NCBI RefSeq assembly: GCF_907164915.1
Contig: NC_061870.1
Location: 4,864,273 to 4,928,272 of the forward strand
Length of the DNA: 64,000 bases
Reading direction: 5' to 3'
Source: Impatiens glandulifera
Taxonomy: Eukaryota; Streptophyta; Magnoliopsida; Ericales; Balsaminaceae
Below the pieces are notes generated by a model, which was given only the letters and a program-made list of their open reading frames with translations, did no database searches and was not told where the DNA came from. A program made the position numbers and the translations under genes. Position 1 is the first letter of the stretch, and each line of letters starts with the position of its first letter. Below, piece after piece: positions 1,304-29,383 of the stretch.

Positions 1304-1928
1304 TCATTAATGCATGTTTTCAAGCTTACATCATCATGAAAAACCGAGGTATATGTTCAAGGAGAAGCTTTCGCTTCTCAAACCGTACCTCAATAGGAGA
1401 TTAAACATTCAAGGTGCTAACCGGAAGGAAGTCTTCAGTTATGCCTGACAAATTCATATTACCAAATCACATGTATATATATTGAGCGGTTCAAATGACT
1501 TGGTAAAACAGATAGTTTAATCCAAAGCTGAACAAATGTCGATCTGGTTCGACATTTCTTCACACCGGAATAAGCTATCTCGATAAAACCGGTCATGGAA
1601 AACCAACCAATAAAATGCATCATGGTTTCGGTAAATTGAAATTTTCCGGTTAAATTGGGACGGTTAACCGTGTTTCCATGCACACCTTGAAAATGGAACC
1701 TATGAATCATAAACAGTTTACCTCAATCGAGATGACGACACGTGTCCATCATCAAGAGAGGAAGACTAACATTTTGTCCATATATTTATTTTCATCATGA
1801 AAATCTTTAGTCATCATTACTATTGCATTGGAACTAAACATTGTACATTTTAACAAGTTAACTTCCTATTAATTATCCGATGACATCACTAAGCACGCTT
1901 ATACTTCTAACCTAGCCGAACCCTTGGC
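1304..1928 (+). other. Post-pol spacer and putative promoter of aORF copy 1
   Basis: No open frame of note. A hairpin lies 43 bp after the pol stop: GAGAAGC TTTC GCTTCTC at about 1362-1379, with an outer GAGGTA/TACCTC pair at 1346 and 1386. A perfect 10-bp palindrome GACACGTGTC (G-box core CACGTG at 1739-1744) lies 190 bp upstream of the TATA box. There is no recognisable polypurine tract or LTR start between pol and the next ORF, so that ORF appears to belong to the element. Confidence 0.5.
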
Positions 1929-1936
1929 TATATAAA
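1929..1936 (+). promoter_or_regulatory. TATA box of aORF copy 1
   Basis: TATATAAA, 82 bp before the ATG at 2011. It is followed by a short leader without an upstream ATG. Two more copies of the same octamer precede aORF copies 2 and 3 at similar distances. Confidence 0.55.
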
Positions 1937-2010
1937 CAACCCTCCAACCTTCAAAACATCTCACAAGATCATTATCAACAAAACATTTGAACTAAGCTTA
2001 TCACAAGAAC

Positions 2011-2722
2011 ATGAACTCCTCTCCTCTTTCTAAAAAGATCATTTTAGCCGATTTCGACTCAATCTACCAGTACGAAGATCACGACATTAAGGAAATGTTT
2101 CTTGCCCTTGAATGAACCGGGCTAAGAAAGTTCTTGGAGAATTGCTTTATCATCGACTACTTAGTAGTCGATGAATTCTTTAAAACAGCTAAAGAAGTGC
2201 ACCGGGACATCATCCTGGCGCAAGTCTATAGTCAATCCTTTCTATTCAGCGATACGGATTTCGCTGAATACTGCGGTTTCCCACTAAAGGGGTAACCGAT
2301 CTCACATACTCTCCGGTGACCATTGAAGAAATGAGTCACCTATTCTCAAGCTCTAACATCCCAGTTAAAACCTAGGGTGCTAAGAGCCAACTCTCTCACA
2401 AGTACCAGATTCTCAGCGAGATTCTAGGAAAACCGTTATGGGTAGAGAAAAGAGCTACTACTATACCCAACAAATGTTTGAAATGATGATTTCCATCACG
2501 GTTGGGACATCGGTCAACTGGTCCTAGATCATCTTCAAAAATTTGAAGAAGATGATCACTTCAAACAAAACCGGCTACGCTCCCCAACTGAGCGGTTTTT
2601 GTGCAAGTCTTGACATCCACTCCGGACCATTCGTCACTCTCCACCCGAAGCATGTGCTGACCAAGGAGAGAATCCAAGAGATGATCGACCGATGGAAAAA
2701 GGCAAGGACTAAGAAGACTTGA
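2011..2722 (+). pseudogene. aORF copy 1: short-form gag-like post-pol ORF, broken
   Basis: ATG at 2011 is the first after the TATA box. The N-terminal domain has the family pattern: DFDSIYQYEDHDIKEMF, then TGLRKFL, then VVDEFFKT, with a FPLKG block near residue 94. TGA at 2113-2115 breaks it early. A one-base frameshift near 2295 and TAG codons in the middle follow. The conserved NWS..IFKNLKKM block is near 2517, with a TAG inside it. The frame ends with a basic stretch, IDRWKKARTKKT, and TGA at 2720-2722. At about 237 codons it lacks the lysine-rich and Gly-rich tails of the long copies. Function unknown; a structural or Env-position protein of the retroelement is possible. Confidence 0.7.
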
Positions 2723-3112
2723 ACCGTTGGGTCATCCAACGTCTAATCTCTTTATGTCTTTTCTATAACCGAACCATCTCATTCTCTTACTTTACTGAAC
2801 CGGTAATTTTGTTGTACTACCGGTTCGGTACATCCATTAATGAAAACCATTTTTTTCCTCTTCTAGCCAAACGTTGAGAAAATAAAAACATTAATGCTCT
2901 GAAATATTCTACATCAAACAACTCAAATCAACCTTGGAAACAGAAATATTCACTTCCCAAAAGTCCTTCCTAGTCTGGATAGACTAGACAGCCTACAAAG
3001 CACCTTTCCCAAACAGATTATTCTCTTGAAAAGACATCAAGAATTTATGACTATAAATGAACGGTCTAATTTTTCAAAATATTCTCATTAAATGCACCTC
3101 AACCGCATGCAC
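2723..3112. other. Spacer between aORF copies 1 and 2
   Basis: AT-rich, with no coding potential seen. It contains CCGGTT-type motifs typical of the surrounding element (ACCGGTAATTTTG and ACCGGTTCGG near 2800-2830). No LTR boundary recognised. Confidence 0.4.
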
Positions 3113-3120
3113 TATATAAA
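3113..3120 (+). promoter_or_regulatory. TATA box of aORF copy 2
   Basis: TATATAAA in the context CACTATATAAAGAC, 111 bp before the ATG at 3224. A CT-rich leader (TCTCTCTCTC near 3161-3172) follows, as expected for a plant 5' UTR. Confidence 0.55.
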
Positions 3121-3223
3121 GACACCATCTGTTCTCAAACAAATCACACTTCAGAAATATCTCTCTCTCTCTATATTTTGAATCTTCAAACTTCAATCTC
3201 CGTTTCTTAATCTGTTCTTCAAA

Positions 3224-3981
3224 ATGAATGTTGAACTTCGAAACACCATCATTGTCAATTTTGATGATGTTCTGAACTCCAGATTCGATGGTGTTCTTTT
3301 CCAACCTCTACTCGAATCCGGCTTACGAAGATTCCTTGAAAAGGATCGGACACCATCCTCGAAGAGGATGTGCACGAGTTCTTCAATAACGGATATCTAA
3401 GGAACGATGGCAGCATCGGTACCATCATTGATGGTTCATTACATTAGCTCACTGAAGAGTCATTCACAAACTTTTTCCACCTTCCATCCGAAGGATTTTC
3501 GGATTTTCCAACACCCTTCTTTCCAGCAAAAGAAGACTATTCATTCATCTTCTCCGGCACCGCCAATTCGGTTGAAGACCATGGTCTAAAAGATGACCTT
3601 GCTCCTCATTTTCAAGTCCTTCAAGTTTTGTTCCAGCGGTCCATTCTGGGCCGAATGTCAAATCAAAACTATTCTCGGGAGGTGTTTGACCTAATGATTT
3701 CAATACTTAGACCCTCTCCCATAAATTGGGCCTCATACATTTTCAATAACCTGAAGAAGCTCGTTAGAGCTCCAAGAGGAAGAATTGGCTTTTCTCATCA
3801 AATAAGCCGATACATGCGTATCAACTTCTCCAACCTTGGACCAGAAGTCCCGATAGGACCGGCCAACACTCTGACCAACCACATGATGGAAAGCTAGATC
3901 GGAAGAATTGAGAACCGGACCGGTAACACCGTGGAGGAATGGATCGAGAGAATGAGAGAAGGAGACTACTTTCATTTTTAA
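3224..3981 (+). pseudogene. aORF copy 2: short-form gag-like post-pol ORF, broken
   Basis: Starts MNVELRNTIIVNFDDVL. The conserved block LLESGLRRFLE is near residues 37-47, then a one-base frameshift falls at about 3340-3350. The next frame reads TILEEDVHEFFNNG, LTEESFTNFFHLPSEGFSD, then INWASYIFNNLKKLVRAP (about 3722-3775) and a GFSHQISRYM block. It ends EEWIERMREGDYFHF with TAA at 3979-3981. In-frame TAG codons are at about 3446 and 3895. The length (about 252 codons) and basic/acidic C-terminus match copy 1, so these two are one size class. It is diverged from copy 1, which implies old tandem duplication. Function unknown. Confidence 0.7.
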
Positions 3982-4424
3982 AATCTTTATTGTTTCCGGT
4001 TATTTCGGTCATTTTGTTGTACGAACGAGTAACCATATGTGTCATCATTCCTCCGATTTAATTTATAAAAAATTTCAAATTTTTGTTCTTCCGGCTTACT
4101 ACCCAACTTCATCTCCGGTTTGACAAATTTTCAAACTTAATATCATCTCTCCGGTTTACCAAACTTCCGTTAAACATTAAGATCTTCCTGTTAACCAAAA
4201 CTTCCGGTTTAAGCAATGTATCTCAAACATTTATCATTCGGCTAAACTTCAAATTAACTGCCAACAGTTTACCGCCCCTAGATTACCGCCCATATTTATC
4301 GCCCATGTTAAACTTCCTTATTTACCGCCAAAAGTTACTGTAGTAACTTTTGGAGGGAAAATTGGCGCCAAAACCGAGAATGAAGCAACGGTTCGATTCC
4401 TTAACCGTCAAGTAATCGTCCACC
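3982..4424. other. Spacer with perfect 11-bp hairpin upstream of aORF copy 3
   Basis: Non-coding, rich in CCGGTTTA-type motifs and short T/A runs. A perfect inverted repeat, CCAAAAGTTAC / GTAACTTTTGG with loop TGTA, occupies 4328-4353. A palindrome TTGGCGCCAA follows at about 4362-4371. Both are 55-100 bp upstream of the TATA box. Confidence 0.45.
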
Positions 4425-4432
4425 TATATAAA
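4425..4432 (+). promoter_or_regulatory. TATA box of aORF copy 3
   Basis: TATATAAA, 116 bp before the ATG at 4541. The leader is TC-rich (TTTCTCTCTCT and repeated ATCTTC), resembling a plant 5' UTR. Confidence 0.55.
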
Positions 4433-4540
4433 TCAGAAACCACTCATTATTCAACCAAGCTTTCTCTCTCTAAAAATCTTCAAAAATCTTTTCATCCATA
4501 TCTCTCAAGATCTTCATCTTCTTCATCACATCGAATCATC

Positions 4541-5805
4541 ATGGGATCAGATAACACACTATTCAACTACATCTTGCAGGTTGATTTCAAGGATATCGAG
4601 CAACACGGAACAAGCGAGTACAAAGCTGTGATCCAATCCTTGAAGGAATCTGGGCTGGAGACTTATCTATCGGGTCCGTTCATCCTCCACCAGGAGGAAG
4701 TCATGGAGTTCTTCAGCACGGCAATCCTGACAAAGAGAACCATCTCTGTCACCGTGTGCGGCAAAGCCTTTGAAATAACTGAAGAAATATTTGCTGAAGT
4801 TCTCGGTTTGCATAACACCGGGAGAGATTTCCGAACAAGCCTACCGGAAGCTGATTCTGAAGCAATCCGACAGGCAATCTCAAAAGATGCAGCGGATCTA
4901 GTGACTCACTCTAGCCGGAAGCTTAAGCTCAAACCGGAATTCAAATGGCTAATGGATATTATCTCCAAATCCCTTCAAGGAAAAGGAGGTAATTTCGACA
5001 ACATGACCCGTCTCAAGATGGAGATGATGATGTGTATTGTCCGCGGTGACAAGATTGACTAGGGAAGTGTCCTCTTCGAGCAACTTTGCGAGGTAATTGC
5101 TAAAATGAACGGTCGGGTGCAAGCTTATGCCATACCGATCGGAAAAATTCTGCGTTTTCTACAAGTAGGAATCAGCGAAGGTACACCCCTCTCCACCTCA
5201 AAAATAATGAACGCTGAAAATGTGAACACCAGGGTGGTTAAACCGGCCAAACCGAGATCTCCAAGAGCCAAAGTCTCAAAGGAAGCTGAACCGGCTGCTC
5301 CGGTTGGCGAAGGTTCCAAAGAAACCGAACCGAATTGTAAGGCCAAGCAAGCTGAAGTCCCAAAGAAGAGGAAAAGAGTCAAGAGCTTGGCCAAGAAAGC
5401 CGCAAAGAAACCGACAAACAAACCTCAAGACTTTGAGAAAATTCTATCTTCAGATCAATCCCCTCGGCTATCCGATCCGATGCTCCACCCTACACCTCTA
5501 AGAGTTGACGTTCCAGTTCAGGTTTCCTCTACCCTTATTCCGAAAAAGGGACGGATTCAGCCGGATCGGTTCCATCTTCAAGGCAAACCGAATCTTCGGG
5601 GAGCCATGTCGTTCTATCTAAGCTGAAGAAGAAACCGACCAAGGAGGTTAGTACTCATTCTAAGCACTCTAAATCCCCCTCCAAAAATGTTAACGATGTG
5701 ATAAAGGATATCGGGCTGAGAACCTCAGAGATAATAGAGAACATCTCTGAACTAGCGTGGCTTCAGATAACCAATCCAACAGAGAGAGAAAAATGTGACT
5801 ATTAG
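4541..5805 (+). pseudogene. aORF copy 3: long-form gag-like post-pol ORF, nearly intact
   Basis: ATG at 4541. The N-terminal domain has VDFKDIEQHG, LKESGLETYLSGPFILH and VMEFFST, then ITEEIFAEVLGL. The frame is open to TAG at 5060-5062. The stop sits exactly where the family has Trp in its NWxS block (ID-stop-GSVLFEQL), as expected from one TGG-to-TAG change. The same frame goes on through VQAYAIPIGKILRFLQVG to a Lys/Pro/Ala-rich region (about residues 228-300, for example KKRKRVKSLAKKAAKK). A frameshift near 5560 is needed to reach VVLSKLKKKPTKEVS, and the frame ends at TAG 5803-5805. The basic tail suggests nucleic-acid binding or nuclear targeting. Function unproven. It runs directly into a truncated LTR. 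Confidence 0.7.
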
Positions 5806-6488
5806 GATATCCTTCACTATAAAAGGAAGACGAAGGGTCTTCATTAAATGCAGTTTTTACAGTTTTTCTGAATTATCAAGAGAAAGAATTGAACATCCAT
5901 CAGTAAAAGGAAATCTTACGCGTGACTCTAAATCGTAGTTGAAATCCTTGAAAGCGTTGTTGTTGTTTTGAGTTATTGTATTACATCAGAGTGAGTGGTG
6001 TAACCGACGAGTAGCGATTAAGACTCGTTCGACATTGTGTGAGTGTTGTAACATTCAAGTTAGTGAAAATCCTTCTCATCATCTGAGAAGAAGGGGTGAC
6101 GTAGGAGAGTTTGCTCCGAACATCCATAAAAAATCTTGTCTCGTATTATTTTCTTTATTTTCGGCTTACTCACTTTAAACCGAACTATCACTTACTTCAA
6201 ACCAAACTGAAACATAAACCTCTACCTTAACCGAACAGATCTATCTATCCTCTCTAACTGATTCCTTATAAATATCATCCAAATCAAACTTTGAGTGTTG
6301 CTTCAAGCTGAAATAGACATTTCTACCCTTGAACCCGGTTCAAGAGTCTGTGACAGCTTGTGTAGTGTTAAGAAACGGTTTTAGTCTCTAACCGGACTAT
6401 CACCAATCAGTGTGTGTATTATTGTTGTTAAGCGTTCTCCCTTAGAAACCGGAACCCCGGTTCTCCAAGGGCGATCCCGATCCTAACA
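5771..6488 (+). mobile_element. Truncated copia LTR, 3' part
   Basis: Contains CCAAT (5771), TATAAAAG (5818-5825) and the block GGGGTGACGTAGGAG followed by CCGAACATCCATAAA (about 6093-6130). It ends GATCCTAACA at 6488. The same order and the same terminus occur in the solo LTR at 62309-63626, so this is the same LTR family. The 5' part of the LTR is missing or fused into aORF copy 3. No primer-binding site follows 6488. Confidence 0.65.
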
Positions 6489-8490: not shown

Positions 8491-10820
8491 CCTATCAAGA
8501 GATATAGTTTTCTTGAGTATCTTATTAGAAGGTATGGTTTGGTTACCTATCAAGTTATAGGGTTTTGTTTGAGGACCTATTGAGTGATAGGGTTTTGAAG
8601 TACATGTTCGAGTGACAAGGTTTTGGTACCTATTTGGATGATAGGGCTTTTCTTTTGAGATATTTGGTCTTAGTGATGTTGGGAGAGGTGATACCTATTA
8701 AGAGATAGGATTTTAGCAAAATTGTATATAAAAGATGTCTCGATCTACTAACAAATAGGGTTTTCAAACGGAATTGTGTACGAATGATTAACTCACCTAT
8801 CAACAGATAGAATTTGTAACCGAACCATATATAAATGATGTCTTGACCTATTTATAGATAGGGTTAAGTCATAGAGATGTGTACTAATGATGTCTCGACC
8901 TATTAACAAATAGAATTTATTCCTGAAGTCATGTACGAACGACGCCTCACCTATTAAAAACATAGGATTAAGTCACGGAGTCGTGTACAAAAAACGTCTC
9001 GACCTATTAACAAATATGATTTAGTCATGGAGTCATGTACAAACGACGTATCGACTTATTAATAAATAGGATTTAGTCATAGAGATGTGTACGAACGACG
9101 TCTCGACTTATTAACAAATAGGATTTAGTCACGGAGATGTGTACGAATGACGCCTAAACCTATTAACTAATAGGATTTTGTCATAGACTCGTGTATGAAC
9201 AATAGTCTCGACCTATTAACAAATAGGATTTAGTCAGAGTCCTGTACAAACGACATCTCGACCTATTAACAAATAGGATTTAGTCACAGAGTCGTGTTCG
9301 AGCGACGTCTCGACCTATTAACAAATACTATTTAGTCACGGAGTCGTGTATAAATGATGTCGTGATCTATTGACAGATGGGATTTCTAACGGAATCATAT
9401 ACAAATGATGTCTCAACCTATTAACAAATAGAATTTATTCTTGAAGTCATGTACGAACGACGCCTCACCTATTAAAAACATAGGATTAAGTCACGGAGTC
9501 GTGTACAAAAAACGTCTCGACCTATTAACAAATATGATTTAGTCATGGAGTCGTGTACAAACGACGTATCGACTTATTAATAAATAGGATTTAGTCATAG
9601 AGATGTGTACGAACGACGTCTCGACTTATTAACAAATAGGATTTAGTCACGGAGATGTGTACGAATGACGTCTAGACCTATTAACAAATAGGATTTTGTC
9701 ATAGACTCGTGTATGAACAATAATCTCGACCTATTAACAAATAGGATTTAGTCACGGAGTCCTGTACAAACGACATCTCGACCTATTAACAAATAGGATT
9801 TAGTCACAGAGTCGTGTTCGAGTGACGTCTCGACCTATTAACAAATACTATTTAGTCACGGAGTCGTGTATAAATGATGTTGTGATCTATTGACAGATGG
9901 GATTTCTAACGGAATCATATACAAATGATGTCTCAACCTATCGACATATAGGGTTTTAACTAGATCATGCATGTATGATTTTAGGTCTTGTCAACTAACA
10001 AGATTGTTAACAAATCATCTTAAAATGATCTTTATGCTTGTTAACAAACAAGGCTTGAAACGGAGTTGTGTACAAACGATTTCTCGTACCTATCGACAGA
10101 TAGAGTTTCTAACGGAATCATATACAAATGATGTCTCGACATATTGACAAATAGGGTTTTTATTGGATCATGTACGTATGATCTCAGGTCTTATCAATAG
10201 ACAAGATTGTTAACTGATCATCTTACAAATGATCTCTATGCTTATTAACAAACAAGGCTTACAACGGAATCGTGTACGAATGATTTCTCGTACTTATCAA
10301 CTGATATAATTTAGGATACCTAACTACAATTAGGACTTTGGTACCTAATGACAATTACAGTTTTAGTAGAATCCTATAAAAAACGATCTATCACACCTAT
10401 CAATAGATAGAGTTTTGAGTACCTAACTACAATTAAGGTTTGGAACGGGATAATGTACGAACGAACTCACGTACCTATCAATAGATAGGGTTTAGATAAC
10501 TAATAACAACTAGGGTTTTTTGTGGAATCTTATAAAAATGATTTATTGCACCTATCAACATATAGGGTTTTGGGTACTTTACTATAATTAGGGTTTGAAA
10601 TGGAATCGTGTACGAACGATCTCACGTACCTATCAACATATAGAGTTTAGATACCAACTAGGTTTATTAGTATAATCGTATAAAAATGGTCTATCTCAAC
10701 TATTAACAAATAGGGTTTGGGATACTCATTTACAAATAGGATTCTAAAACGGGATCGTGTACGAACGATCTTATGTACCTATCTACAGATAGGGTTTGGG
10801 AGACTCAGTTTTTACTTATT
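8490..10820. repeat. Tandem array of about 52-bp monomers with 518-bp higher-order repeat
   Basis: Monomers follow the pattern CCTATTAACAAATAGG, then ATTTAGTCACGGAG, TCGTGTAC and AACGACGTCTC, about 52 bp each. Each has a short dyad, CCTATT-aaca-AATAGG. A block of about ten monomers is duplicated with a 518-bp offset (TAGAATTTATTC at 8911 and at 9429). Toward 10.0-10.8 kb the monomers grade into a longer, less regular form. Plant Tat/Ogre elements are known to carry such hypervariable tandem repeats between integrase and the 3' LTR, and the position here fits. Confidence 0.85.
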
Positions 10821-15857: not shown

Positions 15858-17761
15858 TGTTGAGTCAAATTAAATTAACTAAAATAAACTAAGGAAATAA
15901 GTTTATTCAATGCCTACATTATTTTGATGACTTATGTTAACCTTAGTTGTGATAAAACTGAGCTGTCTATTTGTTTTATGCATGCACAAATCTAAAAGAC
16001 TTTGCTACTTTAGACGCGGTTTGAAGAAAGTTTTCTTAGACATCTTACGTAGTTACATGAGGTAGTATAACTCCTTTAGACGCATCTAAAGGGAAGCGTA
16101 GTTAGACGAAGATGTCTAACTCTTTTAGATGCGGTCTAAAGGGAATCGTAGTTAGACGAGGACGTCTAACTCCTTTAGACGCAGTCTAAAGGGAAGCGTA
16201 GTTAGACGAGGAAGTCTAACTCCTTTAGACGCGGTCTAAAGGGAAGCGTAGTTAGACGAGTTAGTCTAACTCCTTTATATGCGGTCTAAAAGGAAGCGTA
16301 GTTAAACGATGATGTCTAACTCACTTAGACGCGGTCTAAAGGGAAGCGTAGTTAGACAAGGACGTTTAACTCCTTTAGACGCTGTCTAAAGGGAAGCGTA
16401 GTTAGAAGAGGACGTCTAACTTCTTTAGACACGTTCTAAAGGGAAGTGTAGTTATACGAGGACGTCTAACTCCTTCAGACACGGTCTAAAGGGAAGCGTA
16501 GTTAGACGAGGACGTCTAACTTCTTTAGAAGCGATCTAAAGGAAAGCATAGTTAGATGAGCACGTCTAAGTCCTTTAGACGCGGTCTAAAGGGAAGCATA
16601 GATAGACGAGGACATCTAACTCCTTTAGACGTGGTCTAAAGGGATGCGTAGTTAGACGAGGGCATCTAACTCCTTTAAATGCGATCTAAAGGGATGCATA
16701 GTTAGACGAGGACGTTTAACTCCTTTAAACGCATTCTAGAGGGATGCGTAGTTAGACGAGGACGTCTAACTCCTTTAGACGTGGTCTAAAGGGATGTGTA
16801 ATTAGACGAGGACGTCTAACTCCTTTAGACGCGATCTAAAGGGATGCGTAGTTAGAAGAGGATGTCTAACTCCTTTAGACACGGTCTAAAAGAAAACGTC
16901 TGATGCCTTGCTTTAGCGGCCGTTTGAAGATAGCATCCGTCTAACCACGTTCACTTTACTGTCTACTTGTCTTCCATAGTCTAACAAGTCAGCTAATTCT
17001 ATTAAATGAATGAATGCCACGTACGCGGATATCTTTCAAATATATTCCCAGTACAAGACAAGATCAGTTGATACTCGGTACACTACCTATTCGGTATGGC
17101 CACGATCCAAATACTCAAAGTTTGTTATACTCTCATACTATAGGAGACTGTCCAACAGACACATGCCACGTGTCCACAAAGAATATTCGACCATTGGTGT
17201 ACTTCAACCATAAATAGAAGCTCAAGGACAACGGTTGAACCATGCAAATTATTGAATAACTGATTGACTATATATCTGATCGAAATTCATAGTGATAACA
17301 AAACGAACAACTGCTCAACATACATAAGAATCTTTTAATGTCTGTCTAGTTGTGATCATATTGTAATTGCATATTATTTTCTCTTTAACAAACCTCAAGT
17401 GTTGTAAGTTGAACATATGTTGTTCTGTTCAATAGAGAGTTAGCTAACTTAGTGAGTTGTATCTGATTTAAAGTCTTTAGTGGATATCCTTCTGGTTGTG
17501 GAAGAAGGGGTGACATAGGAGTTTTATCTCCGAACATCCATAAAATTCCTTGTGTTCTCTACTTTCTATCATTTGCATTCAGTTGTCTAAAGCTTCAAAT
17601 CCAACAAACAGTTCTGCATTTGAATTCGTTTAAAGAGTTTGGAGGATTTGCAAAGAATAGAAATAGATACTAATCCCTCACAAGATTATTATCGAATCGT
17701 TTATCGTAAGTTGTTCATAATATTCAGACCCCAGTCTCTATTGGTAACATCGATCCCAACA
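15858..17761 (+). mobile_element. LTR 1 of the Sirevirus-like chain (about 1.9 kb)
   Basis: Starts TGTTGAG after a polypurine tract. It ends CGATCCCAACA at 17761, two bases before a primer-binding site. Inside are a 50-bp tandem array (about 16000-16895), a G-box CCACGTGTCC near 17167, and a TATA-like CATAAATAG at 17209-17217. The block GGGGTGACATAGGAG, followed by CCGAACATCCATAAA, lies near 17505-17545 and is shared with the LTRs at 5771 and 62309. Confidence 0.85.
16000..16895. repeat. 50-bp minisatellite in LTR 1, double-palindrome monomer
   Basis: About 16 monomers of 50 bp. Each contains two inverted repeats: TTAGACG-agga-CGTCTAA and CTTTAGAC-gcg-GTCTAAAG, joined by GGAAGCGTAG. Point variants exist but the period is constant. 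The same array occurs in the LTRs at 24098 and 29520. Confidence 0.92.
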
Positions 17762-17775: not shown

Positions 17776-17814
17776 CTCGTTTTTTATTCTCAAGAACCAA
17801 CAAGAATTTGAATC

Positions 17815-19600
17815 ATGTCTATGTCTATCACCAACATGGTTCCCATGTTCTCAAAGGAAAACTATGTCGTGTGGAAGGCGATATTCCACCCTCATCTAGC
17901 TGCCATTGATGATGACATGTGGTTTGTCATCACCGAAAATCCGATAAAGATTGAGAAGGACAGATTTGAATGGACCATTGAAGACAAGAGGAAGATCAAC
18001 CTTGACAACTTGGCAAAAGATATTTTGTACAAAAATTTGGATGACAACATGTTCTACTGCATCATATCATGCAACTCTGCCAAAGAAATTTGGGAGAGGT
18101 TGACTCAACTCTGTGAAGGAACGAGTAAACCAAAGAGAACAAACTAATGGATGCCACACAATAGTTTGATAACATTAAGATGCGTCCTTAAGAGATGATG
18201 TCTGAATTCGATGGGAGATTCTGCAAGATTATCATCACTATTTCCACCTTAGAAGAGACTTACATCAATAGAAAGGTTGCAATCAAAGTCATGCGTGCTC
18301 TGCCCAAGGAGTGGGATATCAAGACGAGGCATTGAGGGAGTCTAAAGATCTCAACAAGATGGAGCTCTTTGACTTTCTAGTCGATCTGAAGGCCTATGAG
18401 TTTGAGATAAACTCTAGGAATGAAGAGGGGTTTTCCAAATCAGCTATCGCAACCAAGGCGTTGGTGATTGTTGAGGAGCCACCTACTGCCACTAATGTGA
18501 AGACTGTAGTATAGCAAATCAGCAGCGATGCCATGACTCTCTTCGTGAAGAAATTAGGCAAATTCATGAAGAAGAGAAATTCTAACTCAAGCTCTTCAAA
18601 TAATAACAATGATGATAAGAATAACTACAAAGCTAACTTAAAGTGTTTGAACTGTGATAAACTAGGACAATTCAATTTGGAGTGCAGGAAGCCAAAGCGA
18701 GATGAGAAGAAGAAGGACAACTAGAAAGAGTTGAAGGCTCTCAAGGCGGCTGGCAACAAATGCATGTTGGACAAAAGCGACTCAAATGATTCATCATCCA
18801 GCGATAGTGATGATGAAGAGGTCACATGCTTCAAGGCAGAAGAAGAAAAAAATCTGAGGTATTTGACTTCTCTTCTGAAGAATTTACAAGAGATGAATGA
18901 ACTGCTACACTTAATGACATGGTCATTGAGTACAAGAAGTTATCAGACTCTTTTAATGAAATAATATTGAAATATGAAACTGATAACTCTTCTTAATCTC
19001 AAACTTCTGAATCAAAAGTTTTTGAAAATAAAGTGGTTGAGCTCTCATCTAAGAATGATAAGCTCAAGGAAAAGGTCCAAACATTGTTTTATGAAAACCA
19101 ACAGTTGACATATGTGGTCAGTTCCTGGACAAGGTCTAGAGACGAAGTTAGACATCAGATAAGTATGTTGAGGCCTTCCCGATGCAAATCCGGTTTAGGA
19201 TTTGACAATGTTATTCTAGACCAGTCTTCAAAGAAGTTAAACCCAGTGGAAGACAAACTTAAGACTATAAACTTTGTCAGGGTTGTTTAACTGATAAAGG
19301 GACTGATCCAAGTTGTGAGGACTTAACCTTAAAAGATGAGATTATTTATGTCAAGACAACTGTAAACTGGATGAAACCTAGGAAGGAAGCAACCAACAAG
19401 TCTGGCAAAACAAAACCTGACAAGAAGTCAAGGAGTTTTAATAAAAAACCATCCTCTAAGGTTAACAGTTCAGCTGCTAACAAGAAGACGTCTACTAAGC
19501 CTAAGTCTTATATATTAATCACAACACAACATGGGAAATTCATCAGCTCAAATATGGATTCCTAAGGGATTGATTGACCGGGGACCCAAGTAAATGTGGG
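17815..19600 (+). pseudogene. Sirevirus-like copia gag, broken
   Basis: ATG at 17815, 40 bp after the primer-binding site. The N-terminal capsid-like part reads FSKENYVVWKAIFHPHL, then LAKDILYKNLDDNMFYCI and SAKEIWERLTQLCEG. Frameshifts near 18133 and 18328 and TAG codons near 18512 and 18722 break it. A CCHC zinc knuckle follows at about 18645-18690 (CLNCDKLGQFNLEC). Gln (CAA) replaces the His ligand. A Ser/Asp-rich linker (SDSNDSSSSDSDDEE) and a coiled-coil segment (ELSSKNDKLKEKVQTL, about 19036) follow, which is the usual long Sirevirus gag layout. It ends in a Lys-rich stretch and an IWIPKG gag/pol-junction motif near 19560. It would have formed the virus-like particle; this copy is dead. 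Confidence 0.85.
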
Positions 19601-19695
19601 TACTAAGAAGTTATAAATATGCATTTTTGTAGGTACACAGATCAGCTGCATAAAGGAACTCGGAAGCATACTCTTCTTAAAATATGCTCTAACAA

Positions 19696-19818
19696 GATCA
19701 ACAAGTGGAAGACGTGTTCACGAAACCACTCCTCAGACTAACTTTTCTTCCCTTAAAATGTTTTTGGTCTTGTAGACCTCAAAATTATTTAGTTTTTAAA
19801 ACATGCACAAATTGAAGG
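19696..19818 (+). pseudogene. Last codons of copia pol after a large deletion
   Basis: The frame starting at 19696 reads DQQVEDVFTKPLLRLTF and stops at TGA (about 19816). DVFTKP is the conserved block at the very end of copia RNase H, as at 1208 in the first element. Only about 100 bp separate it from the end of gag, so protease, integrase and RT (normally over 3 kb) are deleted. Confidence 0.8.
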
Positions 19819-20429
19819 GAAAATTGTTGATGTTTAAAATAATCAGATAGACGTATGAAGATGGAGGTCTCAATTGGTCTAATTAGAGTAGTCGTCTAAA
19901 GGATCTATGTACTTAGACGAATATTTGCTTAAGCAACTTGCAAATTAAGTCTAATTAGACGTCTACTTGTTAGACAAACGTCTAAAGCGCATGTAAATAC
20001 GCGTAGTTAGACGCCGTCTAAACAGATGCATGTTAGACGCCTGTAGACGCGCATAGTTAGACACCGTGTAAATTAGATGTCTACCCAACTTAGATTCAAG
20101 GTATGCGGATGGCATGTTAAAGGTCTAACTACGTGTGCCTTTGGACGTCTCATCCTCGGACCAATAAAAGATATCTATCACTTTAATATGCGCTGTCATT
20201 CAATTTTCTCGCTCAGTCATATTCTAAACTCGAATAACTTGAAGACACGTGTCTTTCAATGTTAAGAATATGACTAATATATCCCTCAGTTAATTACTTC
20301 ACAAAATTGCAGTTACTAAGAATTTGGTAAAATACAGTTATTGATGACTACTTTTGGGAAAAGGTCTTTTAAATAAATGACGGCTTTTAATTCAAATGAT
20401 GTCTTTTGAACTCGTGAGTATTCATTCTC
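19819..20429 (+). promoter_or_regulatory. Post-pol promoter-like region of aORF copy 4
   Basis: Begins with a polypurine-like GAAGGGAAAATTG then TGTTGATG, which could be a diverged LTR start at 19825. It carries irregular TTAGACG/CGTCTAA motifs like those in the LTR minisatellite (19910-20080). A perfect 12-bp palindrome AGACACGTGTCT (G-box) lies at 20243-20254, about 184 bp before the TATA-like box. No coding sequence. Confidence 0.5.
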
Positions 20430-20436
20430 TATTTAA
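20430..20436 (+). promoter_or_regulatory. TATA-like box of aORF copy 4
   Basis: TATTTAA in the context CTCTATTTAAGGAC, 123 bp before the ATG at 20553. It is followed by a leader with TTCTCTCTT. Weaker than the TATATAAA boxes of copies 1-3. Confidence 0.45.
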
Positions 20437-20552
20437 GGACACCTGCATGCCAAAAGGGTTTTACGCTATTTACAATCTTAAAACCCTAGTTTGATCTCTT
20501 CCTTCTCTCTTAAAGAAATCCTAATCTTGTTCGTTAACTCCCATTCTCAAGA

Positions 20553-23500
20553 ATGTCTGCTAAGAAAATTATCTCTCTCTCTCACAATATCATGGAGGTA
20601 GATTTTGATTTGGTCTATGCTTTAGAACAAAAAGATATTGTGGAGATGTTCAAATCTCTAGAGGCCTCTGGCCTCAGAAGATTTCTCAGTGGTCCTTTTA
20701 TTCTATATGAAGAAGTATTTCGTGAGTTCTTCAAAACAAGGAAAGTGGTTGTAGATTCTATCCAGGAAATGGTGAACGACGCAAATATCTCCTTCTCTAA
20801 ATTTATTTTCGTAGAGTTCTTCGAACTTCCTTCTGAGGGTCATACCTTTGACGTTGCGATTAGAGCCGAGATCATCTTAGAAATGCTGATCGTTTTATCG
20901 AACACCGACAGTCCAATCAACATCAATGGGAAGAAGAAAGCCTTGAAATCCCATTTCTGCCTTCTGAATGACATTTTCGCGAAGTCGCATCAGGGCAGGG
21001 CAAGGTCCTTCGATCTTTACACCCAAGAAAATTTTGAATACATGTTGTCAATAAATTGGGCTTCCTCTCTGTTTTCAACCCTTTGCCTAATGATTTCTCC
21101 ATCGAACAAGTAGAGTGCGGGCTTCTCTGTCCAACTCGGCTGGCTCTTGGAGCATCTAGGAGTGCATATGGGTAGGAATGCAATTTTTAACCCCTACATA
21201 ATATTTACTAACATCTCAGTAAAGGGCTCCTTGGAAAGGATAAAACTCACTAAGGAGTTGAATCCTTAATCCTTCGGTCAATAGACGAGTGGTCAATCGA
21301 TCACTCGGTCCAATCATCCAACTATTTCTAGCCACAAGACGACTTTAAAGAGGGCCAAATCTTTAGTCATGGAGTCTGTTGCGAGTTCTAATAGCCAAAA
21401 GAGGGCACCTATTAGGGACTTAGGAGAAGTTGACTCCATTCCTAAAAAGGAGAGACAAGAGAAAATACCCTTTGTCGATGTCCTCTATCATCTTTCTCAC
21501 CATCACCATAAGCCAGCCTAATGAAGAGGTGGGTTGAGTCGTCTGTTCATGTTGCTAATCAGACAAAGGTGTCTAAAGTCGCCAAAATATCATTTAAGGT
21601 AACCTCTTCTACTCTTATGGTCGTAGTGGCAAATATCATTGTTCCAATGGTAGAACAAGCTGGAAGACCAACTATTGAGCCAGTTGGTCAAAATGATGAA
21701 TGTATTAACAGGGAAAATACGTTTGCTTTCCTTGATGAAATAATAGATGTAGATGTTGTTGGTAATAATAACACTACAATTGAAACATAGTAGGTAGTAG
21801 TTCCTCGTCTACTGCTATTGTTACTAACGAACAAGCACTCATTTAGACGGATGTTGCAATGTTCATTGCTGAGATAATCAAAGAATCGCCTGTTCTGAAA
21901 GCAACTAGAACTGTAACTGAGTTTCCAGAAGGTGTGTTTCAAAAATTTCCCTCTCCATTCGAAATATTAAGAGCAGTCAGAGGGGCTCCAGGAATTTCTT
22001 TTTAGAGAACTAGTGTCTACTCCCAAACCAGCCGAAGCTCCAAGAAAAGGAAAAGATAATGTTGAGGATGTTTCAGAAAACCTATATGAAGCCAACTTAA
22101 TCTTAGACCTCATCATGAAGAATGTTGAGGTAAAAGCTGCTGAAAAGATCGAAGCTTTCGACACCTGGAAGAGTCACAAACTCTTTTCACAATACGATGA
22201 AACCATCTCCAGAAAGAAGATTGTAAGAGAATGGAAATAACTGGTTAGAATAGAGGAGCGCATTCTCAAATGGGTAAAAACAACAAGTGTCCACGAAGTG
22301 CTTAAAAGGAGAGAATTCATTGTGGAAAATGTGATGGGGCGTGCTCTTTTTCCTATGATCGAGGCAAGGAAAGAAAACTTCAACCCCCTTGACAAGGATG
22401 TTAATTCAGAGAAAAAGGTTCTTAAACGCCTCGACTTGCTCATGGAGGCCTATTGCTCTACTGTCCTCAAGTACATTCACGGTACAAGGTCGTCTAGATT
22501 TGATATCTTCCGACCCAAATCATCTGGAGAAGAAACCAACTACCAAGATGAGGAGGAACCAATCATTTTCTTTGATGACATTCTATATCCCTAGGGTGAA
22601 CGTCGTCCTTTATCCAAAGTTGAGCAAACACCGTTGTCTTCTGAAGTTAATTTAGACTCTCCAATCCTCAAAGAAGAGGAAATAATTGCCTTTGAAACTG
22701 AGCAGACGTCTGTCACTAAAACAAATGTCCGAAGTTCCCCCAACGTCTGAACAAAGGAAGTCGTAATCTGTTGAGGGGGAACCCTCAAAGCCTTCCGAAT
22801 AGGAACCGACTTCACTAGTTGAGGGGGAACCCTTGAAGCCGTCTGATCAAGAGTAGACTCCGTTTGCTGAGGGGGAACGTTATCGTTCTCAAAGAGTTAC
22901 AGAATCTAAAAAGGCTAAGTCCTCTTCCTCATCCGAAGAAAGACTATCCACTCCTCCAATCACTCGTCACTTATCTCCTGTGAGGATAGCCGGTTATCTT
23001 CATGAATATTTTCTTGAAGTTCCTCTTCAAATTGGGGACATTTCAGGTTTTGTCAATCAGTTGGATGGTGAGTCTCAAGATGTCATAAATGACTATAGGA
23101 CTATGAATGCTCCCATAGAACCCATCCAGGATAAGGAACCAAAGCAATAAATACAGGTAAATCTGAATGTCAATCATATTCGCTCTGTTCTAACGCACTC
23201 GCATGATGTATCCTCTACTCCTCCTTCGTCTAAGGAAGCTTCTCTAAAAGATTCATGTTTTTGCACTACCATTATGGATGCGTTGGGTGCTATGCAGTAG
23301 AAAATAAAGGATATGTCATCCAGACTGCAAAACCTTGAAAAAAGATCCGCAACGAATAAAGAAGTTGTCTCTTCCATGGTTGCTGCTCAAAAAGTCACAG
23401 ACAATAATCTGATGAGAAATACATATGAAGTAAATCTTCTTCACACTCAATACAAGAAGCTATAAAAGAATCTGCACAAACAGTATTCTAATTTTCACGC

Positions 23501-23961
23501 TGAATCGAAGAACTTCAATCTAGATCTGCACCACGAGACAAGGTCCTTGATTGAACATGTTCACAATCAAGTATTGGAGGTTGCCAACGCGCTAAGAAGT
23601 GCAGAAGTCGAACGATTATAGCAAGTAGAGACTGTTGCAAGGCGTTTCCAGGCTGATGAGGATGTTGAAGCTGCAACTGTAAAAAAAAGAGCTCTTATTG
23701 TCGCCAACCCTGATAATGTTAAAGGGGGGGGGGGAAGGAAGCAATATAGAGGGGTCAAGCTCTTCTCGTGGTACTTGATCCAAAAGAAAACCCACTCAAG
23801 ATGATATAGGCAGATGTTAATCTGATAGAGATGGCCACGGTCGTGGAGGAAATAAAGGTGAAGGGAGCGGTGGTCGAAAAATGGCTCAGCTACAAAACGT
23901 TCTAACTGGAGAATCGATTCTTCAAAGTCTAGATCCAATAGTTAAAAGGGAAGGATCTTAA
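20553..23961 (+). pseudogene. aORF copy 4: full-length long-form gag-like post-pol ORF, broken
   Basis: ATG at 20553, then open for 186 codons. Residues 10-70 read MEVDFDLVYALEQKDIVEMF, SLEASGLRRFLSGPFILY and REFFKT. FFELPSEG is near residue 93 and INWASSLFSTL near 167. TAG at 21111-21113 interrupts it, and the same frame continues with GFSVQLGWLLEHLGVHMG. Broken basic and linker segments follow. Then come LYEANLILDLIMKNVEVKAAEKIEAFD (coiled-coil-like, about 22085), three VEGEP-type acidic repeats (22770-22875) and a helical 3' part. The tail is Gly-rich and ends DPIVKREGS with TAA at 23959-23961. An 11-G run at 23724-23734 adds a likely slip. Total reading length is about 1130 codons. The polypurine tract and LTR follow within 140 bp, so it occupies the position of env-like genes in Sireviruses. 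Function unknown. Confidence 0.72.
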
Positions 23962-24082
23962 ATCTAGTATCTTGTGTTATGTATTCTTAACTATGTTTGA
24001 ATACTTTGGTTAAATTACTGAGTTCGTATTCATTTTGATTTACGTTGTCAACTTAATTCATGTTGCTTCGTTTTAACATCAT

Positions 24083-24097
24083 AAAAAAGGGGGAAAT
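24083..24097 (+). promoter_or_regulatory. Polypurine tract before LTR 2
   Basis: AAAAAAGGGGGAAAT directly before TGTTGGAG at 24098. This is the usual plus-strand priming site next to a 3' LTR. Confidence 0.85.
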
Positions 24098-25767
24098 TGT
24101 TGGAGAAATTTAAAACAAATAAAAGAGAAAGTTAATCAAGAAAGAAATAGTTTAATTAACTTTAAATTAATACAAACGAATTTTATGGTTATGAACATAA
24201 TTTTGATGATGTAGTTTGATAAGACTGAGCTGTTTATTTGTTTTATGCAGGCACAAATCTAAAAGACTTTGTTACTTCAGACGCAGTCTGAAGAATGCTA
24301 TCTTAGATGTCTTACGTAGTTAGACGAGATAGTCTAGCTCCTTTAGACGCGGTTTAAAAGGAAGCGTAGTTAGACAAGGATGTCTAACTCCTTTAAACGC
24401 GGTCTAAAGGGAAGTGTAATTAGACAAGGACGTCTAACTCCTTTAGATGCGGTCTAAAGGGAAGTGTTGTTAGACGAGGAAGTCTAACTCCTTTAGACGC
24501 GGTCTAAAGGGAAACGTAGTTAGACAAGGTAGTCTAACTCCTTTACATGCGGTCTAAAGGGAAGCGTAGTTAGACAAGGACGTCTAACTCCTTTAGATGC
24601 GGTCTAAAGGGAAGTGTTGTTAGACGAGGAAGTCTAACTCCTTTAGACGCGGTCTAAAGGGAAACGTAGTTAGACAAGGTAGTCTAACTCCTTTACATGC
24701 GGTCTAAAGGGAAGCGTAGTTAGACGAGGATGTCTAACTCCCTTAGAAGTGCTCTAAAGGGAAACATAGTTAGACGAGGTAGCCTAACTCCTTTAGACGC
24801 GGTCCAAAGGGAATCGTAGTTAGACGAGCATGTCTAACTCCTTTAGACGCGATCTAAAGGAAAGCATAGTTGGACGAGGACGTTTAACTCTTTTAGACGC
24901 GTTCGAAAGGGAAGCGTAGTTAGACGAGGACGTTTAACTCCTTTAGATGCGGTCTAAAGGGAAGCGTAGTTAGACAAGGACGTCTAACTCCTTTATACGC
25001 GGTCTAAAGGAAAGTGTAGTTAGACGAGGACGTCTAACTCCTTTAGACGTGGTCTAAAGGGATGCGTAGTTAGACGAGGACGTCTAACTCCTTTAAACGT
25101 GGTTTAAAGGGATGCGTAGTTAGACAAGGACGTCTAACTCCTTTAGACGCAATCTAAAGGTAAACGTCTGATGCCTTGCTTTAGCAGCCGTCTGAAGATA
25201 ACTTACATCTAACCACGTTTTCTTTGTTGTTTGTTGCTCTTATCTTTAGCAGTCTTACAAGCAAGCTAATTCTTTCAGATGAATGAATGTCACGTACATA
25301 GATATCTTTCAAATATATTCCCAGTTCAAAACAAGATTAGAGGATACTCGGCGCACTACCTGTTCGGTACGGCCACGATCCAAATGCTCAGAGTTTGTTG
25401 TACTCTCGTACTATGGGAGGTCGTCCAACGGACACGTGTCATGTGTACTCAATGAATATTCGACTGTTGGTGTACTTTCTTCAGCAGTCTTACAAGCCAA
25501 CTAATTCTTACAAGCCAGGTAATTCTTTCAAATGAATGAACATCCATAAAACTTCTCGTGTTATTCACTTTCTGGCATTTGCATTCAGTTGTCTAAAACT
25601 TCAAATCCAACAAACAATTTCGTACTTGAATTCGTTTTAAGAGTTTGGAGAATTTGCGAAGAATAGAAATAGATATTAATCCCTCACAGAATTATTATTG
25701 AATCGTTTATCATAAACTATCCACAATAGTCAGACCCTAGTCTCTATTGGTAACACCGATCCCAACA
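24098..25767 (+). mobile_element. LTR 2 of the Sirevirus-like chain, promoter deleted
   Basis: Starts TGTTGGAG and ends CGATCCCAACA at 25767. It has the same 50-bp array and the same end as LTR 1. Compared with LTR 3, about 0.3 kb is missing between GTGTACTT (about 25478) and AACATCCATAAA (25548). That stretch includes the CATAAATAG box. The gap is filled by about 60 bp copied from upstream LTR sequence (CAGTCTTACAAGC and AATTCTTTCAAATGAATG). A GACACGTGTC palindrome remains at 25431-25440. No primer-binding site follows. Confidence 0.85.
24310..25170. repeat. 50-bp minisatellite in LTR 2
   Basis: About 17 monomers of the double-palindrome unit. A three-monomer block of 150 bp (with AAGTGTTGTTAGACGAGG, AAACGTAGTTAGACAAGG and the variant CTTTACATGCGG) is present twice in succession between about 24420 and 24720, a local higher-order repeat. 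Confidence 0.92.
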
Positions 25768-27245
25768 CATGAGGAATACGGATACACCAAAACAATATGC
25801 GAGATATCCTCAAAAAGAACGTCATTGACTTCCAAAATGGACAAAAATGAAAGTCAGAAATGGAGAAATACCCTTAACCTTGGGCTCCTTCATGATGATA
25901 GTAACGGTTTTACCAACCCACTTCTTCTTGGATCCACCAGATGACAAGCCTTCCTCCAAAATCGTGGAGGTAGCATACCACATGCATAGGGGAAACAAAG
26001 ACCCCTTGGGTATCATTCTAGTTGAGACGCGAATGGAGTTAAATGACTCATACTTAACCTCCACCATGAGCTGAAGAGGCTCACTTATAGATCTCTAAAT
26101 CTGTTAATCGATAAACTCGGATGCTTGCCACCAATATGCCCCATCGACGTTATATCCTATAATCTTCAGTACCGAAAAATGAGGAAAGTTTCACCTAAAC
26201 CTCTCGTAGAAAATGATGATGAATCAAAGAATTACTTTCGTGGTATCCCATTATAAATATGGGTTAGATGATGGATGATGAGTCAATGATCACACTCATG
26301 GGTTTAGAGTAGGTCACTTCTTATTATACTCATGCTTTGTTTAAGAAATTTGGTCGTGACTTTTTGCCTCCTTATACGGAGAATGCTATTTCCATAGACA
26401 TGCTGATTGATCATAAGACCTACGTCAGTTACTTGGAAAAGTATCACTACGCCCCCCCCCCAGTTGGGCACCCAAAGTAGCAGAATAATTAATTGCCAGT
26501 AATTCTCGAAGAATATGAGCATGTCAAAAAGAATGAAGTGAAAAACTTCTAGGGTAGGAACAAACTAGAGTAAGACGTAAAACTTATAGCCTTTGTCGTC
26601 ACTTTTTCCTATTTAGACTCTCTCTTTAAATGTAAACAAGAGAGATATGTATGTAACAAACTCAGCGGGTGTTTTGTATAATAACTTGTATGTCTTTAAC
26701 TTCTGAATCACATGGAGATGTTCATTCCCTAGGATTAATTTTACAAGCATAAGCATTGCGTTATACTTATGTTACAACTACAAACCCTCACATCTTTCTC
26801 TTCTCTACAATCCACGACTATAGCAGCCAATACGACCCATAAAAATTAAGATTCGAAAACCGGACACTTTATCCGCCATGAGATGGCCGAGGAAACAACG
26901 ACACCTGAAATGATCTCTGCAACCGAATTTAGGGAAATGAATACAGCTTAACAACATGTGACAGAACAACTTGTGTTGATCATGAGTTCTTTAGCTAATC
27001 AGTAAATACCATCCCCATCCCAAAATATTTCGGCTATGTTCACTCCCATCAATCCCCATCTTACAAGTCCTCGAACTTAAGAGGAAGTTTCTTACTATGA
27101 GGACCCCAAAAAAGATTTCGACCAGACCACACTAGCACAACACAGGACACACGAGGATGAACTCAACCCCATGAGACCACAAGAAATACATATTCCGGTG
27201 GCTAAACAACCACCATAAACGAAATATGAATGCCAAATGGCTCAA
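25768..27245. other. Right flank of LTR 2: unassigned segment with relic gag-like end
   Basis: No primer-binding site and no copia gag. A minus-strand open stretch of 81 codons (26067-25822) is conserved in unit 2 but unrecognised. A plus-strand relic near 26276-26450 reads ESMITLMGLE, then SYYTHALFKKFGRDF, with a TAG. A third relic near 26876-27120 begins MAEETTTPEMIS, then DPKKDFDQT, and looks like the N-terminus of a gypsy gag; TAA codons break it. A 10-C run lies at 26452-26461. Confidence 0.45.
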
Positions 27246-29383
27246 GTTCCTACGTCTACTACTGTTGTTACTAACGAACAAGCACTCATTCAGACGGATG
27301 TTGCGATGTTCATTGCTGAGATAATCAAAGAATCGCATGTTCAGAAAGCAACTAGAACTGTAACTGAGCTTCTAGAAGGTGCGTTTCAAAAAGCTCCCTC
27401 TCCATTCGAAATATTAAGAGCAATAAAAGGGGTTCAAGAAATTTCTTTTCAAAGAACCAGTCCCTACTCACAAACCAGCCGAAGTTCCAAGAAAGGAAAA
27501 TATGTTGCTGAGGATGTTTCGGAAAACCTAACAGAAGCCAACTTAATCTTCGACCTCATCATGGAGAATGTTGAGGTAAAAGTTGCTGAGAAGATTGAAG
27601 CTTTCGACACCTGGAAGAGTCACAAACTCTTTTCACAATAAGATGAAATCATCTCTAGAAAGAAGATTGTAACAGAATGGAAAGAATTGGTGAAAATGGA
27701 GAAGCGCATTCTCAAATGGGCAAAAACAACAAGTGTACACGAAGCGCTTAAAAGGAGAGAATCCATTGTGGCAAATGCGATGGGGGCATGCTCTTTTCCT
27801 AGGCTCGAGGCAAGGAAAGCAAACTTGAACCCCCTTGAAAAGGATGCTAATTCATAGAAAAAGGCTCTTAAACACCTCGACTTGCTCATGGAGACCTATT
27901 ACTCTATTGTCCTCTAACACGTTCACGGTACATGATCGTCTAGATTTGATAACTTTCGACACGAATCATCTGCAGAAGAGACCAACTACCAAGATGAGGA
28001 GGAGCCAATCATTTTCTTTGATGACATTTTGTATCCCTATGGTGAACGTCGTCCTTTATCCAGAGCTGAGTAGACACCGTCATCGTCTGAAGTTAAACTA
28101 AACTCTTCAATCCTCGAAGAGGAGGAAATACCTTCCTTTGACACTGAGCAGACACCTATCGCTCAAAAAGAAATGTCCGAAGTTCCCTCGACGTCTGAAC
28201 AAAGAAAGTCGCAATCAGTTGAGGGGGAACCCTCAAATCCTTCTAAACAGGAATTGACTTCACAAGTTGAGGGGGAACCCTTGACGCCGTCTGATCAAGA
28301 GAACACTACGTCTGTTGAGGGGGAACGTTTTCGTTCTCAAAGAGCTATAGAATCTGAAAAGGCTAAGTCCGCTTCCTCATCCGAAGAAAGTATGTCCTCT
28401 CCTCCAATCACTCTTCATTTATCTCATGTGAGGATAGTCGGTTCTCTTCATGAATATTTTCATGAAGTTCCTCTTCAAATTGGGGACATTTCAAGTTTTG
28501 TCAATCAGCTAGATGGTGAGTCTCAATATGTCATAAATGACTCTAGGACTATGAATGCTCCCTTAGAACCCATCTAGGATAAGGAACCAGAGCAATCAAT
28601 ACAGGTAAATTTGAATGTCAATCCTATCCGCTTCTTTCTAGCACACTCGCACGTTGTATCCTCTACTCCTCCTTCGTCGAAGGAAGCTTCTCTCGGATAT
28701 GCTAGTTTCGCACAACTATTATGGATGAGTTGGGCGCTATGCAGCATTAAATTATGGATATGTCATCCAGACTGTAAAACCTTGAAAAAGGATCCGCAAT
28801 GAATAAAGAATTTGCCTCTTCCATGGTTGCTGCTCAAAAAGTCAAAGACAATAATCTTATGAGAAATACATATGAAGTAAATTTTCTTCACACTCAATAC
28901 AAGAAGATATAAAAGAATTTGCACAAACGATATTCTAATTTTCACGTTGAATCGAAGAACATCAATCTAGAGCTTCACCACGAGACAAGGTCCTTTATTG
29001 AACATGTTCACAATCAAGTATTGGAGGTTTCTAATGCACTAAGAACTACAGAAGCCGGATGTATATAGCAAGTAGAGACTGTTACAAGGCGTTTCCAGGC
29101 TGACAAGGATGTTGAAGCTGCAACAGTAAAAGAAAGAGCTCTTATTGTCGCCAACCCTAATAATATTAAAAAAGAGGAAGGAAGAAATATAGGGGGGTCA
29201 AGCTCCGCTCATGGAACTCAAGGTGGTAGAGGCAGTTGTCAATCTGATAGAGGTGGCCACGGTCGTGGAGGAGATAAAGGCAAAGATGGCGGTAATCGAA
29301 AAAAGGATCGGATACAAAACGTTCTAACTAGGGAATCGATTCTTCAAAGTCTAGATCCAATAGTTAAAAGGGAAGGATCTTAA
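27246..29383 (+). pseudogene. aORF copy 5: 5'-truncated duplicate of copy 4
   Basis: Lacks the N-terminal domain because it starts at the duplication junction. It is open from 27237 to 27641 (TVTELLEGAFQKAPSPFEIL, then LTEANLIFDLIMENVEVKV). A stop at 27639 and a frameshift follow, then an open segment 28173-28577 with three acidic repeats: SVEGEPSNPS, QVEGEPLTPS, SVEGERF. Next comes VGSLHEYFHEVPLQIGD. The better-preserved tail near 29190-29310 is Gly/Arg-rich (GGRGSCQSDRGGHGRGG), and the end is DPIVKREGS with TAA at 29381-29383. The RGG-like tail and coiled-coil segments point to nucleic-acid or self-association, but this is inference. Confidence 0.7.

Follow-up and report, generated by a model that had tools for sequence, protein, structure and literature searches.

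In plant retrotransposons of the SIRE group (Sireviruses, Ty1/copia), a sense open reading frame (ORF) follows pol in 74% of the elements, and these ORF form 19 groups with little or no mutual similarity (Neumann et al. 2019, PMC6317226). The gene in this slot, placed before the 3' long terminal repeat (LTR), is traditionally called 'env-like'. Its role in Sireviruses is controversial and its function is unproven according to MASiVEdb (PMC3414828), and a review also describes the Env function of additional ORF as controversial (PMC7264820). The slot itself and the high divergence of its ORF are already known. The present analysis concerns a 64,000-nucleotide stretch of the Impatiens glandulifera genome (the window; NC_061870.1, positions 4,864,273 to 4,928,272 of the forward strand), in which two old copia elements, element I and element II, contain in this slot a family of related, fast-evolving ORF, the aORF family. 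To judge from sequence, the family very probably represents the 3' accessory gene of Sirevirus/SIRE elements (eORF-3'F). Coordinates are those of the window, and the parts of the two elements, like the solo LTR described below, lie on its plus strand.

The LTR of Sireviruses carry palindromic repeated motifs; elements with an env-like gene contain extra copies, of which 77 of 79 lie upstream of that gene (Bousios et al. 2010, PMC2829016). An internal promoter for the gene had been proposed earlier, and the authors of that paper could not conclusively identify a promoter. The same source gives the polypurine tract (PPT) consensus as AGGGGGAG, followed by the AT/TG of the 3' LTR, and reports an A variant of this tract for ToRTL1 and Tnd-1. 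In the Ty3/gypsy Athila elements, Athila ORF-1 is present in 16% of the elements (PMC6317226) and a Transposase_32 domain is reported in the 3' ORF of a sunflower element, Athila 14 (PMC11728184). The plant mobile domain ORF of other Ty3/gypsy elements (57% of Ogre, PMC6317226; host kin MAIN/MAIL1, PMC5418596) are likewise extra ORF of plant retrotransposons with unclear function. These differ from the aORF family in that they belong to another Pfam family, to which no aORF copy gave a match.

The aORF family has four copies at two loci. Three of them stand in a row in element I (aORF1, 2011-2719; aORF2, 3224-3978; aORF3, 4541-5803), and the fourth, aORF4 (20553-23958), is in element II. The earlier sequence-only reading had counted five copies; the relationship of these four ORF holds, whereas the supposed fifth, at 27246, is devoid of the core. 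In a six-frame search of the window, copy 4 retrieved copy 3 (expectation value, E, 8e-17) and copy 1 (E 2e-12), and copy 2 retrieved copy 1 (E 7e-11). Identities between copies range from 25 to 44% over the aligned pieces. All six pairs outscore every codon shuffle (200 for each pair), with protein scores of 90-182 against 53 or less, and the five pairs that were compared with 1000 residue shuffles also lie above all of them. When 1480 six-frame pieces were searched with a profile built from the copies, the four loci came out and no other piece was better than E 0.96; since the profile was made from these same copies, their own scores are no proof of kinship. Alignment at the DNA level is scant (blastn: copies 1 and 2, 95 columns, E 0.001; copies 3 and 4, 89 columns, E 0.007). 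The core motifs previously described (DFD, SGLRxFL, EFF and NWxSxxF) are seen in the copies, except that copy 3 is without NWxS and copy 1 reads TGLRKFL.

The short forms, copies 1 and 2, reach no further than just past the domain; copies 3 and 4 are long-tailed. The longest open piece of aORF4, whose extent was followed from its frames and the window search, covers 20553-21113; the end portion of the domain contains a stop, and frameshifts split the tail. Copy 1 is 44% identical to copy 4, in the other element, versus 31% to copy 3 of its own element. Given these values, the duplication may have taken place before the two element families diverged, or recombination may have mixed the copies.

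At both loci the sense ORF, broken as they are, lie between pol and the 3' LTR, so that an extra ORF family in this slot is borne out in two Sirevirus-type elements. Element I begins with the 3' part of a copia pol, from the reverse transcriptase onward (2-1303, traced by its frames; RVT_2 match in the Pfam scan, E 2.9e-23, at 227-706), and ends in an LTR remnant (5804-6487). The remnant is similar to LTR A of element II (71% over 141 columns, E 6e-15) and to a solo LTR located at 62309-63626 (66.8% over 373 columns, E 1e-35). Element II contains LTR A (15858-17761, from the repeat map), the start of gag (17812-18144; PF14223, E 1.4e-7) and the end of pol (19693-19812, recognised by eye from its frame), most of pol being gone. 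Its aORF4 is followed by the PPT AGGGGGAA plus the AT of the 3' attachment site (24088-24097) and by LTR B (24098-25767, repeat map), just as the first reading had it. The same reading placed the ORF directly after pol; pol does precede the copies at both loci, with a gap of 0.7 kb before copies 1 and 4.

The PPT junction of element II, AGGGGGAA-AT-TG, is found at 24088 and 29510 (the latter a duplicate) and corresponds to the Sirevirus consensus with the published one-letter variant. The primer binding site (PBS) junction, CA/A(T or G)TGG/TATCAGAGC, is fitted by CAAGTGGTATCAAAGC at 17760, but all three elements of the window fit, copia and Ty3 included; the junction CA/AGTGG/TATCA(A/G)AGC was dropped as a Sirevirus test for this lack of discrimination. 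Both elements appear to be of Sirevirus type by slot and boxes, the PPT signal being limited to element II.

Both families have palindromic or box-like repeats in their LTR and again ahead of the env-like gene. In element II, the 740 base pairs (bp) between pol and aORF4 (19813-20552) hold 10 TAGACG/CGTCTA boxes against 0.38 expected, a number reached by none of 500 shuffles, and include the palindrome TTAGACGCCGTCTAA at 20007-20021. Elsewhere, 28 such boxes are found in LTR A, one in the gag-pol remnant and none in the flank. Of the 12 instances of the palindrome TTAGACG-N-CGTCTAA in the 64 kb, 11 belong to the LTR arrays, with LTR C counted although it duplicates LTR B, and one precedes aORF4; 100 shuffles contained none (chance mean 0.00). 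The element II LTR contain arrays of a 50-bp repeat in 13-17 copies (16048-16890, 24315-25167 and 29737-30388), the unit of which carries the palindrome TTAGACGAGGACGTCTAA.

In element I, nine AACCGG/CCGGTT boxes (0.52 expected) are distributed over the three intervals that precede the copies: three between pol and aORF1 (1304-2010), two between aORF1 and aORF2 (2720-3223) and four between aORF2 and aORF3 (3979-4540, where the observed/expected CpG ratio is 1.42). The element I-type solo LTR, with the 5-bp CGATG on each side, has 12 such boxes against 0.45 expected. None is present in the element I pol or before copy 4, and the 55 kb that separate element I from the solo LTR contain nine. The element I boxes have a CCGG core (full palindromes are not shown), and TTAGACG-N-CGTCTAA replaces the usual CGG-CCG core in element II. 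A TATATAA lies at 1929, 3113 and 4425, that is at -82, -111 and -116 of copies 1, 2 and 3 (all three copies of element I), against a baseline in which a TATAWAW lies 60-140 bp ahead of about 10% of positions. The arrangement of boxes and TATA, motifs that were picked after the sequence had been seen, supports the published idea of an internal promoter and makes these loci candidate promoters. It is likely that the 3' gene has an internal promoter of its own, as predicted here.

Among Pfam models, the only substantial similarity is to Transposase_32 (PF20167). For copy 3, the match to this model has E 9.9e-7 if the sequence is cut at the stop and E 3.5e-8 if it is read through, residues 51-182 aligning to profile positions 17-148 of 177. 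It is fairly probable that the aORF domain is distantly related to the Transposase_32/Athila ORF-1 type; membership is not claimed. The 3' aORF of Athila, whose Transposase_32 domain is related to Athila ORF-1 (PF03078; PMC11728184), resembles the present family in its post-pol position and in the domain match of copy 3, and further in an NLS-like run (resembling a nuclear localisation signal, NLS) and in the mixed helix and beta blocks of the published model. Athila elements are Ty3/gypsy, whereas the aORF elements are Ty1/copia, and the match is below cut-off and seen in one of the four copies. The best fold model of the copy 3 domain is mixed alpha/beta (predicted local distance difference test, pLDDT, 62; predicted template modelling score, pTM, 0.57; moderate confidence, from a six-row alignment). 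It runs from helices through a three-strand block (62-80) and a two-strand block (120-129) to further helices; the other four models of copy 3 are poorer (37-51).

The claim that the long forms have basic or Gly/Arg-rich tails is supported. The tail of copy 3 is Lys-rich and carries the NLS-like run KKRKR, and the duplicated tail of copy 4 has a Gly/Arg-rich end and three RGG/GRG-type triplets. A role of the tails in RNA binding is possible. An uncharacterised Impatiens glandulifera protein, P0001, is 74% identical to the copy 3 tail over 53 columns and matches the window at 5132-5290 and 5533-5748. It was the sole relative returned by the homologue look-up in the protein database, which gave none for copy 4; hits depend on shared 5-residue words and on a length range, so the look-up is weak evidence of absence. 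Dorcoceras hygrometricum was considered as another source of relatives, and a literature search for it yielded nothing of use. The profile search of the PDB reached E 0.09 at best, and the Rfam scan of 1-33000 gave nothing at the gathering score. Several weak Pfam matches were attributed to chance or composition: GCR1_C (0.022), MIP-T3 (0.081), GEMIN8 (0.12), SRP54_N (0.22), DUF4287 (9e-4; copy 2, across its stop) and OrfB_IS605 (0.097; P0001).

Third codon positions agree between copies at 0.28-0.40, against 0.25-0.26 from composition. Silent change would be near saturation, yet the proteins are similar far beyond chance. As protein similarity persists where third positions are near random, past selection on the protein is likely, which is not a proof of it.

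These data are best accommodated by a SIRE 3' accessory gene with its own promoter and a nuclear accessory product, a reading that is moderately probable as a whole. The gene would be transcribed apart from gag-pol, its internal promoter consisting of regulatory repeats of the LTR type and a TATA. Translation would yield a compact alpha/beta domain, alone or followed by a basic tail; in the long forms this tail likely directs the product into the nucleus or onto nucleic acid. The product would then assist the element by regulation or nucleic-acid binding and would be neither capsid nor envelope; its nuclear regulatory role is a tentative prediction. In element I, three diverged copies stand in tandem, each with its own promoter-like region.

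Several observations weigh against this reading. Stops or frameshifts are present in all four copies; every copy is a pseudogene in its present form, and the 3' gene of the element is deduced from broken ORF. The boxes are not confined to promoters, since AACCGG/CCGGTT is also raised inside aORF1-3 (7 versus 0.80 expected) and the element II hexamers inside aORF4 (5 versus 0.78 expected). Copy 4 is without a strict TATA and offers only CTATTTAAG, found by eye. A PPT was looked for ahead of the element I LTR remnant (5804-6487) and none was found, for which reason the 3' end of this element is regarded as damaged. The 34-bit score of copy 3 for PF20167 is under the Pfam gathering cut-off of 45, so that it does not qualify as a member, and matches to this model are limited to copy 3 (its two cuts, among 24 sequences scanned, some of them overlapping). 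The fold model of copy 4 failed (pLDDT 46), with three strands at the corresponding place nonetheless. Finally, in the codon-position test all five pairs examined showed least conservation at the third position (chi-square p 0.0065 to 1.4e-5), and the test was dropped as evidence of selection because codon shuffles show an equal excess (50-134 of 200 reach the observed value, six pairs); protein-guided alignment favours codon positions 1 and 2, which accounts for the failure of this control.

The sequence-only reading regarded the family as gag-like. A structural protein of the gag or RNA-binding kind, serving to package or chaperone the element RNA, would suit the basic and Gly/Arg-rich tails of the long forms. 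However, element II has a separate true gag (PF14223, at 17812), no gag or zinc-knuckle model of Pfam matches any copy, two of the four copies are tail-less short forms, and the copy 3 model is mixed alpha/beta instead of all-helical. The gag-like identity was rejected for the missing gag match and the mixed fold, and the wider structural role is unlikely. The name of the slot suggests instead an envelope-like or cell-to-cell movement protein, and the slot is indeed shared with the described env-like genes. The first reading had noticed no membrane segment, which agrees with ten of the 11 segments tested for hydropathy (1.56 at most; parts of the copy 4 tail were excluded) and is less clear for a 19-residue stretch in the middle of copy 4 (frame 21512-21787), which reaches 1.77. 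This stretch speaks for an envelope or movement function; the low values of the other ten segments, the NLS-like run of copy 3 and the lack of any relation to Env in the Pfam and PDB searches speak against it, and such a function is very unlikely.

The family could also be a captured host gene family carried as a passenger, or the trio of element I could have been assembled by recombination between elements, the tandem set being functionless in either case. The closer similarity of copy 1 to the copy of the other element than to its neighbour copy 3 agrees with this, Sireviruses with captured host sequence have been reported (PMC13317346), and the direct codon-position test of selection failed its control. 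On the other side, the family occupies one and the same slot in two elements that differ in LTR and boxes, each with regulatory boxes to match, and the proteins have remained similar where third codon positions are near random. A passenger or recombinational origin is given a low probability, and the accessory gene of SIRE type is retained as the favoured reading.

A more specific function may be considered by comparison with VANC, a protein of VANDAL elements that binds repeated motifs in the non-coding regions of its own element and removes methylation, targets and proteins changing together (PMC5735166). By analogy, the Sirevirus 3' gene would encode a sequence-specific nuclear factor, not an envelope, that binds the boxes of its own LTR and its own promoter and thereby relieves silencing or activates transcription. 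The two systems share an element-encoded extra gene and element-specific repeats in non-coding regions, including those upstream of genes, and both components vary between related families. VANDAL is a DNA transposon with demonstrated DNA binding and demethylation, whereas the aORF family belongs to LTR elements and is parallel in arrangement alone. The boxes also occur in the LTR of Sireviruses without an env-like gene (OPIE-2, PREM-2, Osr8 and Tnd-1; PMC2829016), which counts against the analogy. In the repeat units of element II, C-to-T and G-to-A differences amount to 0.148 at CpG versus 0.072 at other C/G sites, a count that took 27 of the 46 units and dropped 15 of 16 in array A and 4 of 13 in array C. 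This CpG excess weighs, if anything, against a VANC-like factor, as the dead copies give no sign of lasting protection. A function of this kind is rather improbable.

Compared with the published eORF-3'F (PMC6317226, PMC2829016), the aORF family agrees in its slot, sense strand, divergence and upstream LTR boxes, as well as in the lineage signals of element II. It differs in that its domain has no clear membrane segment and is Transposase_32-like, and in that element I holds three diverged copies, each with a TATA. The family may be one of the 19 published SIRE groups. Word searches of the open literature found no account of the aORF family itself or of its tandem trio, no Transposase_32-like domain in a Sirevirus and no Sirevirus with several 3' ORF having their own promoters. 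In a further word search, which included the excerpts of PMC3414828, PMC2829016, PMC11963269 and PMC11728184, no DNA-binding or anti-silencing role of Sirevirus 3' ORF was found.

The supposed fifth copy at 27246 was rejected as an independent copy, since it starts past the core domain and belongs to a tandem segmental duplication. The segment 27245-32725 duplicates 21799-27244 at an offset of about 5446 (a 5.4 kb tandem duplication of the copy 4 tail region), with 11.6% mismatches over 2272 aligned columns from the ORF tail to the LTR and with GTTC common to both sides of the junction at 27245. On this evidence it is a local duplication rather than another insertion. It comprises the duplicated aORF4 tail (27245-29380; repeat map and profile), without core and with a Gly/Arg-rich end, and LTR C (29520-31246; repeat map). 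A PPT-like site is also present ahead of LTR A, and the same non-PBS sequence follows LTR B and LTR C, which is why the element II locus is described as a rearranged array. The sequence after LTR B (25768-27244), repeated after LTR C, contains worn ORF that are maybe remnants of another element; the piece tested from it, 25829-26071, had no Pfam match.

The window contains further repeats. A copia element (42004-48640) has 569-bp LTR that are 97.2% identical and recognisable gag and reverse transcriptase, and a young Ty3 element (48822-55374) has 965-bp LTR that are 99.2% identical and an integrase with a chromodomain. Neither has a plus-strand ORF of at least 120 codons between pol and LTR, nor a match to the aORF profile below E 0.96. 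The solo LTR lies apparently, by eye, within a FAR1-type gene, with a FAR1 domain at 61597-62097. Two fields of tandem repeats (8737-10797 and 35650-39824), with periods of 25 to about 200 bp and a recurring CGATAGGTA-like motif, lie outside the elements.

The literature leaves open what the 'env-like' genes of plant LTR elements do (PMC7264820, PMC6317226, PMC2829016, PMC3414828). With LTR boxes placed before the 3' gene in two families and a TATA before three of the four copies, the internal-promoter hypothesis becomes directly testable, and the paired boxes offer a concrete DNA target for testing function. If the VANC-like factor were real, box and protein would co-evolve in each family, with TTAGACG-N-CGTCTAA in element II and AACCGG/CCGGTT in element I, and a related domain would serve both Athila (Ty3) and SIRE (Ty1) elements. 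The likely Transposase_32 link suggests a possible common origin for the 3' genes of SIRE (copia) and Athila (gypsy) elements.

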